Positions 7,011-32,842 of a stretch of DNA of 64,000 nucleotides are shown here, piece after piece. The DNA comes from Zeus faber (lineage: Eukaryota > Chordata > Actinopteri > Zeiformes > Zeidae): positions 9,553,237 through 9,617,236 of the forward strand of contig OY482860.1 of NCBI GenBank assembly GCA_960531495.1, read 5' to 3'. The position numbers were made by a program, and so were the translations under genes. The notes below the pieces were generated by a model. That model did no database searches. It had not been told where the DNA came from and saw nothing but the letters and a program-made list of their open reading frames with translations. Position 1 is the stretch's first letter, and the number at the start of each line of letters is the position of its first letter.

Positions 7011-7301
7011 TGTCAGTTAATATTGTAATTAAAGGATACATTTTTCTAACCCAGGACTAAAAGTTAAAATGTTATAGCCCATCATTTGTAACTTACCACC
7101 ATCTTTTTATTCTATAAATGTCCTTTATCAAAACCGGAAACCTCCAGTATAGTCAAACAGTCTTTATATGTTATACCTAAATGGTTGCAACATGTGCATT
7201 TTATCAGGTTTTTCAGGGTTTTATCACTTTTTTATATATTAATTGTATGTCTCTTTTTCAGAAGAAGAGCTGGAGCTGAAATATAAAGAATACCAGAGAT
7301 T
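7011..7301. other. AT-rich interval, no gene seen
   Basis: AT-rich sequence between the Tc1 element and the next dispersed repeat. No open frame or repeat structure that I can name. Confidence 0.5.
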
Positions 7302-7370
7302 CAGGATTCAAGAGGTTTATTCGTCACATACATATACATACTTTCATACATATATGCAGTGAAATGTTAG
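7302..7370 (-). repeat. Dispersed repeat end (TTGAATC-type tail)
   Basis: The segment reads as the reverse complement of 15335-15395 with few mismatches, and it resembles 25440-25535. The common core is a GTGACGAATAAA or GTGACAAATAAA hexamer region followed by TCTTGAATC. It looks like the 3' end of a dispersed retroelement family. Confidence 0.6.
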
Positions 7371-7540
7371 AGCGGTGCACCGGCGCAGGCGACCGCAAGG
7401 GGCGGCGCCACTATCGCCTCCCCAGATTCAGGTGTGATGACACATTAGTAAAAAATTGGCAATCACACCCAGCTGAAACTCACCAATAGAAAAACAGAAT
7501 CACTGACCAGACATAACAGACATTCGTCTGGACCTCACGA

Positions 7541-8100
7541 GGGGGAGCGGTAGATCGCATCCCCGCAATAAGGTGCAGCTTCACGGACAGAATAGAGTTG
7601 GTTGCTTTTTCAACGATGTATTAGGAACCGTCTACAAGTTACATGACCCAATTGTAAAGTTTTAATAACTGTAATAACTATCATGTGACTTAGGACACCC
7701 AAACTAGGTCTATATAATACTAGCACCTGGACTACATGTTGCACAGCCTTTCAATTTCAAAATAAAAGCTCCTGTTTTTATATGGTTTTCTAAATTTCAA
7801 AGTTCAATAGCTTTTCTGGCTTGTGACTAAGGAAACCCAAACTAGGTTTATGAAGTACTAGGACCTAGACTACTGTTGCACAGCCTTTCGATTTCTAAAT
7901 AAAAGTTCCTGTTTATATATATACACACCTGTATATACATATGATTTCTTAATTTTCAAAGTTCAATATCTTTTCTGTCATGTGAATTAGTACACCCAAA
8001 CTAGGTCGATATAGTACTAAGACTAGACTACATGTTGCACATCCTTTAAATTTTGAAATACAAGTTCCTGTTTTTCTTCCGTCTTTAAAACAATTTCAAC
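7541..8100 (+). repeat. Left terminal inverted repeat with subunit array
   Basis: The terminal block (7543-7660) is followed by three degenerate units at about 7680-7815, 7820-7975 and 7976-8100. Each has the order ACACCCAAACTAGGT, then a TATA-like stretch, CTACATGTTGCACA, TTTCAATTTCAAAATAAAAG, and TTTCAAAGTTCAATA. The array is mirrored at the right end. Confidence 0.75.
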
Positions 8101-8706
8101 TCCCCAATCTTTTTCCTGCAGAGTCTTGGCCTCTCCCTGGTGGCTGAGCCTCCACACAGGCTCCAATGCTGCACGACCCAAAAGTGTAGGAAACAAATTC
8201 TCTGAGGATCACAGGAGACCACAACAGCTATCCTAGCCATGACATCTCTATTCTGCTACTATTTGACAACCAACAGGGTCATGGGTCGCTTCTTCTCAGC
8301 TTCTTCTCAGCTTCTCAGCTTCTCTCAGATCCTTTAGCTCTGACAGCTTTTAAGAAATGATGACACAACTCCATCAAAACGTGATTATTCCTGAGTCTGG
8401 ACGGTGTTGTGGTGTTTCGGGACATGTGGCTATTTTTCCAGGTTAGGGTGTTTGGGTTGCACCCGTGGCTGGCTTTGTGTGTTGTTGTAGGGTGCTGTGG
8501 TGGATGGGATGGCTTGTGCAGCCACACTCGACGCTCGTTGGTTGGGCGGACGAGAGGCAGGTTTAAAAACCCCATCCACACACTCAGTCAGCGTAGGAGC
8601 CCTGTCATGACATTTCCATCTGCTCCTGGCTAATTCCACCTATCCTCATCTCTACATTAAACTGGTGTTAACCCCCCCCCCGGCATCTGTGTCTCTGTGC
8701 CGACGG
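8101..8706. other. Transposon interior or insertions, no clear coding content
   Basis: Contains short CTTCTCAG repeats near 8285-8325 and a run of C at 8671-8681. Short open frames on both strands overlap each other and resemble nothing I know. Confidence 0.4.
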
Positions 8707-8941
8707 TCCCTGAAAACGCCACTGGGGTGGCGTGTGGTGGCGAAACTGCCACAGTTCTCCAGCGGACCCCCTGGATGCTGCTGCTGCTGCCAGTCGGGAG
8801 AGGGTTGGTGCTGGTGCCACCCGTTGAACCGCTGGTGGCTCCAGGACGTCTTCGGTGTCCCTTCCCTGTGCTGGAGCACCACATTGGGCGCCACTGTGGC
8901 CCTTTCGCCACCACATGCCACCCAGGTGGCGTTTTCAGGGA
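8707..8941. mobile_element. Short inverted-repeat element (MITE-like)
   Basis: Arms of 48 bp at 8707-8754 and 8894-8941 match in inverted orientation at about 43 of 48 positions, beginning TCCCTGAAAACGCCAC. The 139 bp between them are GC-rich with a CTG run. This fits a non-autonomous DNA element or a foldback. No clear target duplication is seen. Confidence 0.7.
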
Positions 8942-9559
8942 AGCTTAATGAAGTTTCAGAGACTGAGACAGTTTCTTCTGAAAGTCACATGAAACAGTCA
9001 GATTTGAGGTCAACAAAGCCTGGACCAAAGATGTTCACCATTGCCATTAATAGAAATAAGTGCAGCAAGATAAAACAGTTAAAAGTTTCAACGTGCCTCA
9101 GACAACCATGGGCATATATCATCTCTAAACAATTCTCGCCGTGCTGCACTCTTTCTTTTAAATATCAACATGTTATGCACAGACATAGCTTTAAAATAAG
9201 GTTACTGTACCTCCATTTATCTGCACGAATACCAACACGGCAAACCAAATACATTAACATCAACTTTTTTAGATTTGGAAAAGTGTGTAATGCAATTTAA
9301 GAAAGAAAATTCCGGCTTGCCAGCAACGTTAGGCGGGGTAAGATTGCAAGGTCTGTAAAAAAGGGGGGTGAGCAACTACCACGACAAAAAGCTCCAGGAA
9401 ACACCAACGGAGGAAATTTTAGCTGGCAACATAGCATGCAGTCTTACTAAAGATGTATTAAAAGTAATCTCCTCAGAATTGGGGGAAAAAAAAAAAAGTG
9501 GAAGACTGCACAAAAATATTTTACTGGAACTAATGTGAAACTCAAAAAATCAGTGCAGC

Positions 9560-10714
9560 ATGGACATGTTCACAGGTGGCTACGCGCAAAATGGTATGGT
9601 GGACCCATTTGCTGTACATCTGTAGATGGATGCAGGAATTAGGATTTGGGTGGAGCACCTTAAAAAACCCACACCCGTCACCCTCTATCTGGATGCTACT
9701 GGTGGGGTTCTCCAAAAGATTCCCAACCAAAACAAAAGTGTTCTGTATTATGCCCTTGTATATCCAGGAATGCGCAAAGACAAACCGCCCCTGCCTATTT
9801 CTGAGCTCATAACCAACCGGCATTCCATTCCAAACCTCACATATTGGCTGATGGAAACGCAACACTAAGTTTCCATTTTCACCACAAGAAGGGTGAGCCG
9901 GGTGGTGACTGACTACAGCTGGGCTTCAATGGAGAGTGTGCTCATGTCCTATAACAAACAGTATTACTGCATACCTTGAGATAACATATAATATAGTAAC
10001 CAAAAAGATAATCAGCAGTGATGTGCATAGAATCAAATTTTGCACCTGTATTCTGCCAGGCCTGCCAGCCTAAAGCCATCACACCAGGGATTTGGGAGGA
10101 AAGAAACAGACCAAGGGCTGAAGGAGTATACCACATGTTGTCTCATATTACTTCTGAACAGCACTTCAATGGATAAGGGACTTAATGTGTTCCATCCCAT
10201 GCGTCTTCTTTTCACCACTAAACAAGGCGGTGACGTGGTGAGAAAAAGCAGGCGCACCCTGGACCACCACTCAAACCCACAGGAACAGTCGGAGGAAAAT
10301 ACAGACAAAGAACTTGCCATAGAAAGCCATGCAAAGACTATGTGTGGGCAGTCCCCCTTTACACAAGAATTGAATGCAGTTTTCTAACTGGCTCGTGGAA
10401 ATGCCAACACAGGGAACATTTCCCAGAAATGAAAATCACATTTCTGTTCAGCAGCTACCTGGCATTACTTCCATTATGGAGGGGAATACTGCTCGGTAAT
10501 TCAAAAACATATATACTAAAGATGCTGACTTCTCACCAACAAAAAACATGGCATAAATGCGAGACACAAATTGTCATGTGGAGATGTGGTTCTGGTCAAG
10601 TATTCTATTCTTCAAAAGAAGAAATTCCTCCTCCCGGCTGATTTTATACAGATGTTGTACGGCTCTCTTCGAGGCCGGTACAAAGAACATGTAATGGAAC
10701 ATCAGCTCACTTAA
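9560..10714 (+). pseudogene. Broken D-D-E-type transposase of the large element
   Basis: Reading through several frameshifts, the plus strand gives a catalytic-core-like series. A first acidic strand LYLDATGG has its Asp codon at 9692-9694. A second, VVTDYSWASM, has its Asp at 9911-9913. A late CHVEMWF has its Glu at 10581-10583. A C-terminal stretch (RGRYKEHVMEHQLT) ends at a stop near the RTE insertion point. About 223 codons separate the second Asp from the Glu, which implies a large insertion domain. Supporting text lies between (LHLYSA-like near 10040, KGLKEYTTCCLILLLNST near 10110-10170). Stops and frame changes throughout mean it is inactive. The D-D-E reading is inference from motif spacing and remembered relatives. 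Confidence 0.6.
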
Positions 10715-10724
10715 ACCCCTTTCC

Positions 10725-11272
10725 CTCTTCTTCTTCTTTGGGCTGCTCCTGTTAGGGGTCGCCACAGCGGATCATCTGCCTCCAACACCTTCTGTTCTGC
10801 GCATCTTCCTCCCTTACACCAACCGCCTGTATATCCTCCCTCACCACATCCATAAACCTTCTCTTTGGACTTCCTCTTTTCCTCTTGCCTGGCAGCTCCA
10901 TCCTCAGCATCCTTCTCCCAATGTGACTCTCATCTCTCCTACACACGTGTCCAAACCATCTCAGTCTGGCCTTTCTCACTTTTCCACCAAACTGTCCAAC
11001 CTGAGCTGTCCCTCTAATGTACTCATTCTTAATCCTGTCCATCCTTGTCACTCCCAATGAAAACCTCAACATCCTCGACTCTGCCACCTCCAGTTCAGCC
11101 GCCTGCCTTTTTGTCAGAGCCACCGCCTCTGAACCGTACAACATAGCTGGTCTCACTACCGTCCTGTAGACCTCCCCCTTCACTCTTGCTGGAACCCTTC
11201 TGTCACAGATCACTCTGGACACTCTTCTCCACCCACACCACCCTGCCTGTACACTCTTCTTCACCTTACCTT
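10725..11272 (-). mobile_element. RTE-type LINE 3' fragment with 17 bp target duplication
   Basis: The minus-strand frame 10752-11264 (170 aa) is the C-terminal end of an RTE-clade reverse transcriptase, including RPAMLYGSEAVALTK, LRWFGHVCRRDESH and KRKRGSPKRRF. The 3' UTR ends with the common RTE tail (GGCTGCTCCTGTTAGGGGTC on the plus strand from 10741) and a CTT-rich end. Flanking copies of a 17-base sequence at 10708-10724 and 11273-11289 differ at one position, a classic target-site duplication. The insertion lands inside the transposon's transposase gene. Confidence 0.85.
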
Positions 11273-11289
11273 CACTTATACCCCTTTCC

Positions 11290-12160
11290 TACTGCACCAA
11301 AAACCCGGTAACTCCCACTAACATCTGGCATTTGTCACCAGTAGGAAAGAACTAACCCGGGTCATAGTACTGGGTCAAATTATCCTACAATAGACCACGG
11401 TTTTAATCGGCTCCACCTCCAAACAGCTCTGATGTGAACAGGACACCCGGGTCGACCTGCTAATTAATGTCCCTTTACCTGCGTGATGCGACGCTCGTTG
11501 AAATTACGGATGCTGCCGCGAAAATAGACAGGAATATCCGTGTCTCATCCATCATTTCATATCCCATTTTGAATCCAAAATCAGAGGTTATTGACATTTT
11601 TTCCGCATGGGGGACCATGAAATGTTGTGAGTATGAGGATCACATCCACGACTGCCAGTGTTGCATGCTGCCTCTACTGTAATGTTGGGTCATTCGTGAA
11701 CAATCCAATTATTTTGAACGGCTCAAAATGCCTTTTTTCAAGTTTCACAGTTTTATTGTGAACTGCCACGCCCCTTTTCCGGCGTGTCTGTGACGTTGAA
11801 CGTGACGCTCCAGAAAAAACAGCATTTCTTCCTACAATGGGAAATGTGTCAATCGCCTATTTTTTTTGCAGCTCATTTTTGGTGTGAAAATGGTAAAAGA
11901 GACGCTGGTGACTAAGCGATCTCCAGCTCTCATTCAAGGCCTTGATCAGGAAGAGGAGAAATGGGCAAGGAGAGGCACAAATGAGAGTGCAAAAAAAGAA
12001 AAAGTCCAGATACTTTCAACCAGTTAATCTCATCTCATCTCATCTCAGTTAATTACTTAGAAATATTTATAATGATCGTTTTGCGTACAAGTCAATGGAC
12101 GTTCCCTTTCATCAACTTCATTTGTTCTTAACTTTTTTACTTGCAGGTTACAACTCTTTG
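11290..12160 (+). other. Transposon interior: linker remnants and unexplained sequence
   Basis: About 11930-12030 reads on the plus strand as a basic linker ending SRYFQPVNL, which would fit the region between transposase and protease modules. The rest, including GC-rich text with CCCGGGT (11357 and 11446 areas), has no recognisable coding content and may hold a small insertion. Confidence 0.35.
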
Positions 12161-14361
12161 GAAAAGCAAAGCAGGAGGTGGAGGTGGAGGTGGTGGTTGC
12201 TTTGATTCCAGGAAGTGACCGAAGGGCGTCATACATTTTGCACCACTCCGATTTCAACACACTACGTCCACACCAACGGCGGACAGGAGGGGTAAAAGCC
12301 ACAACAACAAATGTTGTCTGTCTATCTAACCTCGTGAAAACGAGCCAGAAAAAATTTAATATGTAATAATATTTAAAAATCTACAATCTCGAGTAACTAC
12401 AGTCTATTTAAGACGTAAATGTTTTCATGACTTTATGTATACAGTATGTAAAATGTATTATTTCCTTTTTAAAAATATTTAACTCTTTTGTCTTGTTTTC
12501 ATTTAGACATTTTTTATTATTTTTGATTTCATCTAAAAAAAAATTATAATGCGACATTCGTTGAAGTTTTTAACATGCTTGTGCTGTCCCAATTTAGACC
12601 ATTGAGTGCTATAGTGGCTGTGCAAACTCGAGGCCTTCGACGAGACGTGTACATCCTGAACCATTACACTGCTGGCATGATAATGGATGGAAAGAGGACA
12701 GACGTACGCCGACAAGGTCTCCCAAAGGTACATGTCAATAAAATTGCGAGAATTATAAATGTGAGGTTAACATGATTCATCGCTACTACAGTCATTTCTG
12801 ATGTTCCGTTGCAGGTCAATTTTGAGGACTACATTGCAGCCATTAGTTGCCTCAATATCAACACTAATCACCGGAGGTTTCTGATAAGGATGTCTATAGA
12901 AATCTCGAGCAAATCATGAATAACTTTACTTTCTAATGTGCTGATCAATATTTACTTCTCCCCAGTATCTTCTCTAAGTGTTTGGCATCGCTCCTGCAGG
13001 TCAAAATGAGAAGCTGGACTCTTATTTCATAGATGAAGAAAATATTACATTTTACAGGCATATCCTAGTCATTAAATGTGTAGTGTAGTGTAGTCACAAT
13101 AAGTAAAGGTGCAACGATTTGTTGTTTAATATTACTCTGTAATGACTTTACTTCATGTAAGAGTCCCACTTGACAATGACACCTTCACTCCTTTATCAGA
13201 TAAGGAACCTCAGGGCAGACGAATACCACAGGTCCCGATACTGATGGGCCTGGAAATCAGGCCGAGAAGCAGATGCAGAGTAGAGACATACAAAGATGCT
13301 GTTGACAAAAAACAACAACCCAGAAATAGGTCAGTGTTCTAAAATAAACAGGGCCAGGAAAGGGTAAGTTCAGGGGCAGGACCTGTAGCGTTGTCATAAA
13401 GCGGCAGAAGCACAGAAATCCACAAGACCAAATACAACATAAGAAGAACTCATAAAAGATAAGCACTGCACACCAATCTGAATAAGTCCAAAATCGCACT
13501 CTGAAACACACTTGTCAGATCGGGACGCCGCTACAAGAGGGCCAAGTACCGGCAGTACAACCCTGATGTAAACCTGAATCTCCAGCATCCCAAGTATTGC
13601 GCTTCTACCAATAGAACCTACAATTAATTTACATTAAATGACACAAATTATGGGAATTTATGGAGTAGCAAGGCTATTGCACTACTTAAACTAAAAATAT
13701 ATTACACACACAACACCCTTAAACATCTTCACCTTCTATTGATAAATAAAATACTGAAATAAGACACAGTAATATAAATATCTTCCAATACATTTCTACA
13801 TTGTTATGTCATCATAAGATAACATCATGTAAAGTGCAATCATTTATGTCCAACTCAAATTGTAATTTTCTTTACATAAATATGCATTTAAATTCAGTCT
13901 TTGATGATGCAAACAACTGTGCAATGGGTATGTCGGACAAAGCGCGTGGAGGAGGACCACAAACAGTTTGGGTAGGTGATTTTGTTATAAACACTACAGT
14001 AGCTATTCGTTAATGTAAAATGTTACCCATTACAATCATGATTTGACAAATCTCTTACAGTCACTATGATCATATTCATCTCTAATACATTTGACATTCA
14101 TCTTCGGTCATTATTATTATGCTCTTGTACTTGTTTTTCCTGACAACACAGGATATCCGCTGTAAACAACATACCATGTGGTGCAAGCAGTGTGTGTGTA
14201 TGTTTATGGTTGGTGTTTTTATCTTTGAGATTGAATGTCACTGTTGTAAAAGATGGTACCACCAACTATGCCTTGGCATGAGTACAAAAATTCAACAAAG
14301 TGAAGAGATCTCACTAGAAGTATTCACTTTGCTGTTAATAAAGTTGGCCATTCTACAATAA
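12160..14361 (+). pseudogene. Ulp1/SENP-like protease and PHD-like finger remnant of the large element
   Basis: Pieces in order on the plus strand. An ASYILHHSDFNTLRPHQ block at about 12220-12275 resembles the start of Ulp1 (C48) protease domains. A block with VYILNHYTAGMIMDGKR and RRQGLPK follows at about 12640-12727. After a consensus intron (GT at 12728, AG at 12814) the frame continues VNFEDYIAAISCLNINTNHRRF; the His of NTNH (12869-12871) sits where the catalytic His would be. Next is FDDANNCAMGM at about 13895-13930. Last is a cysteine-rich finger, IECHCCKRWYHQLCLGM, at about 14229-14280. Stops lie between the pieces and I could not find the catalytic Cys. Naming is moderate-confidence inference. 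Confidence 0.5.
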
Positions 14362-14436
14362 TAATAATTCTATAATAAGGTATGACAACAAATTTTTACA
14401 TTGAATGAAAGTAAAGACATGTTTTTACGTATGTAT

Positions 14437-14438
14437 TA

Positions 14439-14526
<88 letters not shown>
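14437..14526. repeat. (GT)n microsatellite
   Basis: About 44 GT units between the finger remnant and the right inverted-repeat array. Confidence 0.95.
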
Positions 14527-14528
<2 letters not shown>

Positions 14529-14780
14529 TTATATGTATGTGTGACCAGTCTAGGTTCTAGTACCATAGAGACCTAGTTTGGGTTTCCTAAGTCACATGAG
14601 AGAAAAGCTATTGAACTTTGACATTAAAAAAAATCATATATATTGAAACAAGAACTTTTATTTTGAAATTGAAAAGCTGTGCAACGTGTAGGCTAAGTCC
14701 TAGTACTATATCGACCTAGTTTGGGTGTCCTAAGTCACATGAGAGAAAAGCTATTGAACTTTGAAATTCAAACAATCATA

Positions 14781-15232
14781 TTTGCGGCAGACCAAAGGGC
14801 GTGGTTAAGCCGCGGTTGCAGACGGCAGAATGGCTTCCTTCCCCGTGCCGGAAAGTCCCTGGTCAGGCGTCACTTGTGGGAGTCTCTGCCCACAGGTAGG
14901 GGTTGAGGGAGGGAGACGGAGTCGTTCTTGCCGTGGGTTGCCCACATGGCGAGAGTTTTATTATACAAACTGAACAAAAAGGCTCGATGGCCAAAAGGAT
15001 AAATGATAGAGAATAATGAGGTTGGGTGCAGGAGGAATGACGTTCCAGTTTGTCTCCTGGTCGGCTGATCCCCTCTGCAAGACGGACAAACATGAAGAAA
15101 GCTCCCTGCCCCGGATCGAACCAGCCAGCGCCGTGCGCGGGGCAGCTGTGCGGTCACGGGGAAGGAAGCCATGCTGCTGTCTGCAGCTGTGGCTTAACCA
15201 CGCTCCTTGGCGTGTGCCCCCTCGCCACATAT
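14781..15232. mobile_element. Foldback or MITE-like element inserted in the right array
   Basis: The outer arms are inverted copies. Both contain GCGTGGTTAAGCC, GCAGAC and ATGGCTTCCTTCCCCGTG in the same order when one is reverse-complemented, over roughly 55-60 bp. The interior (about 14860-15140) is unrelated. It interrupts one subunit, which resumes after it, so it inserted later than the array formed. Confidence 0.7.
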
Positions 15233-15334
15233 GTAAGAAAAGGAGCTTTTATTTTTAAATTGAAAGGCCGTGCAACATGTAATCTAGGTCTTTGTACCAT
15301 ACATTTCATTTCATTTCATACATTTCATTACACT

Positions 15335-15397
15335 TCACTGCATATATGTATGAAAGTATGTATATGTAAGTGACGAATAAAAATCCTGAATCTTGAA
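15335..15397 (+). repeat. Dispersed repeat end, inverted relative to 7302-7370
   Basis: Ends in GTGACGAATAAAAATCCTGA followed by TCTTGAAT, the same tail family as 7302-7370 and 25440-25535. Confidence 0.6.
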
Positions 15398-15717
15398 TAT
15401 AGACCCGGTTTGGGTGTCCTAAATGACATGACAGAAATGCTATTGAACTTTGAAATTTAAAAAATCATATGTACAAAAACAGGAGCCTTTATTTTGAAAT
15501 TGAAAGGCTGTGCAACGTGTAGTGCAGGTCCTCGTTCTATATAGACCGGGTTGAGGTGTCCTAAGTCACATGGCAGAGAAGCTGTTAAAATGTTTAAAAT
15601 TGGGTCATGTAACTTGTAGACGGTTCCTAATACGCCGTTGAAAAAGCGGCCGACTCTCAGCGCTGCCGCTGTCCGTGAAGCTGCACCTTATTCTGGGGAC
15701 GCGATCAACCGCTCCCG

Positions 15718-16595
15718 ACTGGACTGTTCCACTTTTACCATCGAGAGAGACGAGAGAGTCATTTTGATTTGTTTTCTAATTTTACTGTTCTGCCAACCTG
15801 CAGTGTAATTTGATCTTGTTTTACCTGAACATGTTTCGATCCAATTCTGCCATCTAGTGGTAAATAGGCCCAGTTATCCAACGCAAAATGAGCTGTAGTA
15901 AATAGTTACATCAAGCTCTAAGTAATTTGTTAATAATAGTCTAGATCCCGAGCTGCTTACTTTTCATTTTATTATTTGTTTTTGTTATAGTTGCCTTTCC
16001 ACTTAAACTGATCTCAAGTAAATGATTAGCACGTTCCATTTAAACCAAATTGCGTTCCCTTGCGTACCCATTTATAAAAGGAAGAAAGAAAGAAAGAAAG
16101 AGACTGATACGAAGCGTACACCAACTTCAAACTTCTCTTTTTTTAATCATCTTTTTTTTAATCATTTTCTTTTTTTATATTTTAAGAATATAACTTGTCG
16201 CAAATAATTGTATTGCGTGTACATATTGTGCGTGGGCACTTTTTTGCGATGATATGTTCAGTCCCACAGATATCATAGCCTGTAATATAAAATAACATCA
16301 ATATATAGTATACAAAAATATATATGTATCTTCTTCTCTCGGCAGTGAGAGTGGAGTTTGACGGTTGCCATAGAAACCGACGCCATATTTGGAGGATCAC
16401 TTGCGCAGAGAAAGCGCTCAAAGACACGAAATGAACAAATAAAAATGGAGAAAGGGAAGGGTCGGGGTTGCACACACACATGGATGCAAGATTGTCACCC
16501 AACAAGACTTCCAAGCATCTTTTAACTCGTGCCGACCGACATTCAGCCAAATGCGACGAGTGATCCCCCAAATGTGGCGGTTTGCGCCAGCAATG
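15718..16595. other. Intergenic, no gene recognised
   Basis: AT-rich with a GAAA run at 16080-16100 and T-runs near 16140-16175. Minus-strand frames in 16182-16604 do not resemble known proteins. Confidence 0.4.

Positions 16596-24394: not shown

Positions 24395-32842
<8,448 letters not shown>

Follow-up and report, generated by a model that had tools for sequence, protein, structure and literature searches.

A decayed DNA transposon of Zeus faber with a transposase-like core, Ulp1-like motifs and a PHD-like finger

The element, its ends and its copies

The window analysed here is a 64,000-nucleotide stretch of the Zeus faber genome (G000:C16:9553237-9617236). Copies were sought in the window's own 803 Mb assembly, whose contigs are referred to below as C2, C4, C16 and so on. 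Near the left of the window lies a block that is a dead, decayed DNA transposon. Its inverted ends of 48 nucleotides (7543-7590 and 15669-15716) are 92% identical, and subterminal repeats of ~145 base pairs (bp) are found at both ends, inverted relative to each other. Between the ends, the plus strand carries the remains of a transposase-like protein, stretches that resemble Ulp1-type proteases and a PHD-like finger (Table 1).

Searches for related ends were done with two queries. The left end of the window copy gave 41 matches, including that copy's own two ends (best 40 of 67 candidates scored); with an end taken from a different copy, 42 matches were obtained, including the query itself and the right end of the window copy (best 40 of 128 candidates scored). 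When both searches were merged, at least 60 other matched ends were located at at least 53 other places, and these matches exceed chance. The similarity of the ends and the number of places with matching ends bear out the proposal of a preliminary description of this DNA, made from its letters, that the block is a large, decayed transposon bounded by inverted repeats. Part of the end copies form a second type. Eight pairs of ends face each other, at distances of 398 to 3713 bp.

Comparison by eye of 21 ends, the two of the window copy included, showed that 18 of them, among these the left end of the window copy, share sequence outside position 7543. The right end of the window copy (L014) had no common sequence beyond the repeat, and L019 and L036 had only part of it. 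In a second comparison, of 18 ends, the terminus read ACCGTGG in 7 and was one base off in 6 more. The alignment of the C2 copy with the terminal regions of the window copy begins at 7508 at the left end and stops at 15720 at the right end, and the terminus of C2 itself lies near C2:21819588, beyond the match to the window. Because the C2 match stops short of C2's own terminus, the window copy lacks the outermost bases on both sides; the family termini lie further out than 7543 and 15716. Thus, the inverted ends by which the block had originally been bounded are real, but they are not the ends of the family.

Two further observations concern the ends. In L049 (C7:6827101-6831500), L055, L016, L027 and L032 the common sequence extends hundreds of bases past the usual terminus; these copies either form a subfamily with longer ends or have inserted into one and the same host repeat. 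A dispersed repeat occurs three times (7299-7367, 15330-15398 and 25475-25538); it flanks the element and also sits inside it.

Table 1. Features of the decayed element, in window positions
Feature	Position	Strand	Remarks
Left terminal inverted region with ~145-bp subterminal repeats	7508..8075		Family's outermost end bases absent
N-terminal region	8942..9408	+	76% DNA identity to C2 copy; frame only partly clear
Transposase-like core	9440..9976	+	D motifs at 9692 and 9911; three stops in single frame
C-terminal transposase-like region	10352..10726	+	E at 10581; frameshifted; TNCHLEMWF in C2
Nested insertion	10727..11897		One or more repeats, foreign to the element; absent from C2 copy
Linker	11898..12030	+	Contiguous with E region in C2
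First Ulp1-like exon	12147..12291	+	HHSDFNTLRPHQ, then GT; SDFNTIHPHQ and GT also in C2
Second Ulp1-like stretch	12598..12727	+	VYILNHYTAGMIMDGKRTDVRRQGLPK; this copy only; no Pfam C48 match
Third Ulp1-like stretch	12815..12885	+	NFEDYIAAISCLNINTNH after CAG acceptor; this copy only; no Pfam C48 match
PHD finger, first exon	13888..13971	+	NNCAMGMSDK...TVW; GT donor at 13972
PHD finger, second exon	14230..14313	+	IECHCCKRWYHQLC...; AG acceptor ahead
Inner right subterminal repeats	14547..14781		Inverted copies of the left ones
Nested insertion	14785..15227 (approximate)		Own inverted arms 14792-14847/15155-15210 (88%); foreign to the element
Right subterminal repeat fragment	15228..15301		
Right terminal inverted region	15397..15716		Outermost bases absent

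The transposase-like core and its relatives

The motifs first noticed in the block (LYLDATGG, VVTDYSWASM, CHVEMWF, SDFNTLRPHQ, NTNH and C..C...WYHxxC) are present. The first three supply D residues at 9692 and 9911 and an E at 10581. A distance of 73 residues separates the two D residues, and the E follows after another 223 codons of DNA, across frames. The second D is followed by FCTCI, which in the window copy lacks the H of a C/DxxH motif; the C2 copy lacks that region.

The block does not read as one long gene, as had been thought. Three stops interrupt the single frame that holds the two D residues, and the E lies in a different frame. The Ulp1-like and PHD stretches form separate pieces that resemble exons, and the sequence from 10727 to 11897 is missing from the C2 copy, where the E region and the linker form one contiguous stretch with two stops within it. 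Positions 10726-11265 have 91% DNA identity to C2:21813016-21813555. The right end of the element is also split, by the insertion at ~14785-15227 and by the dispersed repeat at 15330-15398. Inside the first nested insertion there is an open stretch of 178 amino acids on the minus strand (10752-11288), presumably akin to the end of a long interspersed element (LINE) reverse-transcriptase protein. Ahead of the N-terminal region is a small fold-back repeat (8707-8941, arms 8707-8755 and 8893-8941, 90%), and its reading is similar to a stretch that lies upstream of the PHD exon at C2:17382268 (L069, ~1087-1200).

When the genome was searched with the core protein, five matches were obtained, distributed over three loci: the window itself, C2 and C4. 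The C2 locus has 73-84% DNA identity to the window, depending on the piece, and the order of its parts is the same: N-terminus, core, E region, linker and first Ulp1-like exon, then a matching end. The C4 locus is a distant relative, with 28-36% protein identity. DATGGV is conserved at all three loci; the first D and the E are kept in C2, and the first D is kept in C4. Of 97 bases compared at each codon position, the window and C4 share 45, 64 and 28 at positions 1, 2 and 3, respectively, and none of 5000 shuffles scored as high as either of the window-C4 core pieces. This pattern is that of descent from a protein-coding ancestor, so that the core was formerly under coding constraint.

Relatives were also sought in IMG/VR, GTDB contigs, phages and plasmids, the window's own genome being the sole eukaryotic set. 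Pattern matches in IMG/VR (5, 85 and 35 stretches) and in GTDB contigs (79 stretches) confirmed no relative, and tblastn against phages and plasmids gave no match. Two IS256-like transposase frames of 414 and 421 amino acids were seen in the assembly (G000:C31:42577-42813 and G000:C60:16798-17040; L073 and L074), and these are probably bacterial contamination.

The Ulp1-like stretches and the PHD finger

The SDFNTLRPHQ and NTNH stretches resemble motifs of Ulp1-type relatives, and it is these short motifs that suggest a Ulp1/C48 protease. A candidate catalytic His is present in NTNH; no Cys motif was seen by eye in 12900-13880, where the view was of translated pieces from 12500-13250 and 13750-14400 plus longer frames. 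The first Ulp1-like exon belongs with the transposase in one element because it is shared with C2, as SDFNTIHPHQ. The later Ulp1-like pieces found no other match in the genome search. When the Peptidase_C48 model (PF02902) was run over the genome, four matches were obtained on C15, C13 and C1 and none at the element. These resemble SENP exons of the host, with scores of 201, 84 and 72 for the loci on C13 and C1 when compared with the exon on C15, and they were set aside.

The PHD-like finger proposed earlier gained support from splicing. As a raw frame it scored 21.2 bits against Pfam; with 13888-13971 joined in phase to 14230 onward across GT...AG, the score rose to 25.4 bits, against a cut-off of 24. 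The best PDB matches of the spliced version are PHD fingers of the KDM5 type. The match spans profile positions 9-36 of 47. In the C4HC3 pattern the C..C...WYHxxC stretch is present, G stands in place of the second Cys (NNCAMGM) and the final pair of Cys residues was not found. The match is above chance, and the stretch is a PHD finger, though an incomplete one. An earlier reading of the finger from CKQC (14178), which also matched PHD chains (35 sequences), was replaced by the spliced version. Six other matches to the PHD in the genome are weak (E values 0.01 to 0.57). Among the C2 sequences, a partial PHD at C2:17382268, IQCDKCKRWFHEQCLDMDTEDLEQAR, follows an AG acceptor at the same codon (a weak match, E value 0.07). 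The later Ulp1-like pieces and the PHD are not in the C2 copy and were seen in the window copy only; the finger may nevertheless have belonged to the same gene as the transposase.

Interpretation and comparison with known systems

In our judgement the block is probably the dead remnant of an autonomous DNA transposon of the cut-and-paste type, with a DDE-type core followed by a basic linker, then a Ulp1-like region and then a PHD finger. A spliced plus-strand gene would once have encoded a transposase-like protein in which D 9692, D 9911 and E 10581 were followed by these three parts in that order. The protein may have bound the long inverted ends and the subterminal repeats, cut the DNA there and moved the element to a new site, and it would also have mobilised short copies that retained the ends. 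The PHD finger may have read histone tails, tethering the protein to them, and the Ulp1-like activity, if real, would have removed SUMO. That the protein counteracted SUMO- or chromatin-based control by the host is conceivable; the preliminary description had suggested an interaction with such control.

A number of results weigh against this interpretation. The core and E region have no Pfam or NCBIfam listing (Pfam listings were inspected at E values up to 10), and the one PDB match for this region, a dehydrogenase with an E value of 0.27, does not identify it. Comparison of the core with the two IS256 transposases on C31 and C60 gave nothing above shuffles (hhalign probability 0.1), and single-sequence fold prediction of the core alone had a predicted local distance difference test (pLDDT) score of 30.8, unusable and discarded. 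The proposed D-D-E transposase thus keeps its motifs and its former protein constraint, but a DDE fold was found neither by profiles nor by fold prediction, and DDE catalysis is suggested by the motifs in their transposon context. Similarly, the element has no Pfam match to PF02902, and the Ulp1-like part has no PDB match; the sole Pfam listing for that part is the sub-threshold DUF7476 (best E value 0.012, 16.1 bits against 27). Its similarity to the host SENP exon is at chance, no better than shuffles, so that the motifs attributed to a Ulp1-type protease are present but the expected C48 match and SENP similarity are absent. Differences between the window and C2 numbered 36, 41 and 39 at codon positions 1, 2 and 3 of 283 sites (sums over seven framed blocks, the frame of the 9227-9400 block being uncertain). 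The two copies have thus drifted without visible coding constraint since their separation. Among the eight facing pairs, only L048 (8 of 10 end bases) and L049 (10 of 11) suggest a target-site duplication; the L049 candidate is palindromic and present at the ends of other copies too, and the ends of the window copy are incomplete.

Other origins were considered for parts or all of the block. The later Ulp1-like pieces and the PHD could derive from a separate element, or be host exons captured inside the transposon; the C2 copy lacks the stretch between 12397 and the right terminal region, the later Ulp1-like pieces are unmatched elsewhere and the other PHD matches are weak. However, all modules are on the same strand, in the order of published transposase-Ulp1-PHD proteins, the first Ulp1-like exon is common to the window and C2, the PHD pieces splice in phase, and the partial PHD at C2:17382268, weak as it is, has its AG acceptor at the same codon. 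We regard such a composite as unlikely. That the modules belong to different elements, an alternative raised in the preliminary description, is excluded for the transposase, the linker and the first Ulp1-like exon by their colinear arrangement in C2; unlike them, the later Ulp1-like pieces and the PHD have no support from C2.

A Zisupton/KDZ element, the fish transposon that combines a zinc finger with a SUMO protease, is an almost equally unlikely identity. Zisupton reportedly has a C-terminal Ulp1 domain, and the C-terminal motifs here are Ulp1-like and come from a fish genome. On the other hand, Pfam presumably contains a KDZ model, the core and E region have no Pfam listing at E values up to 10, and a DATGG core with a PHD behind the Ulp1-like part is not known from Zisupton. 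Zisupton is reported from fish and generates 8-bp target duplications (PMC12730594, PMC3424704). The case for a Ginger1 element, with a Gypsy-integrase-like transposase, is very poor. According to Bao and colleagues (2010; PMC2836005), Ginger1-9_HM carries a C-terminal Ulp1 with a PHD, as this element may have done, but Ginger1 5' ends begin with TGTNR, whereas ACCGTGG or a close variant was found in 13 of 18 ends compared here, and the core matches no integrase model. As no profile searched recognises the core and the ends are unlike those of Ginger1, the DATGG protein could found its own unnamed superfamily of animal DDE transposases, with a Ulp1-PHD tail acquired independently. We think this improbable, to about the same degree as the Zisupton identity; if true, the Ulp1-PHD tail would recur as a module among animal transposons.

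Two further systems close to the element are Dada and MuDR/Mutator. According to PMC3706591, Dada elements are large, multi-exon fish elements with a C-terminal zinc finger, features that recall the present one. Their catalytic residues are given there as D567, D635 and E811, the first two 68 residues apart as against 73 here, and a C/DxxH motif is shared with MuDR, hAT, P, Kolobok and IS256. Unlike the element described here, which has inverted ends, Dada-U6 and Dada-U1 are without terminal inverted repeats. Dada is characterised by insertion in small RNA genes, and the term Ulp1 is absent from that paper. The inverted ends thus set our element apart from Dada.

With moderate confidence, the element is most likely MuDR-like, its superfamily being unproven. 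Bao and colleagues (PMC2836005) report that Mutator transposons of hydra and of lancelet have Ulp1 domains, a pairing that the transposase-like core and Ulp1-like motifs here resemble, and the legend of one figure refers to an alignment of the Ulp1 and PHD domains found in Ginger1 and Mutator transposases. The core described here, however, has no match to the Pfam MULE model (PF10551), which is unlisted for the joined pieces and genome-wide had both of its two candidates on C31 and C60 only, and CxxH is not complete in this copy. Because of the MULE result we have not filed the element as a member of MuDR. A single dead copy changes little, but should the fusion be confirmed in preserved relatives, one could test whether histone marks or SUMO help such transposons to choose sites or to escape silencing. 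Since Ulp1 and PHD are reported in Mutator and Ginger1 transposases (PMC2836005), the architecture is already in print for animal transposons, and the element is a further, decayed representative of a type already described. It adds a fish genome to the places in which a transposase-like protein occurs together with a finger of the chromatin-reading type and a part resembling a SUMO protease.

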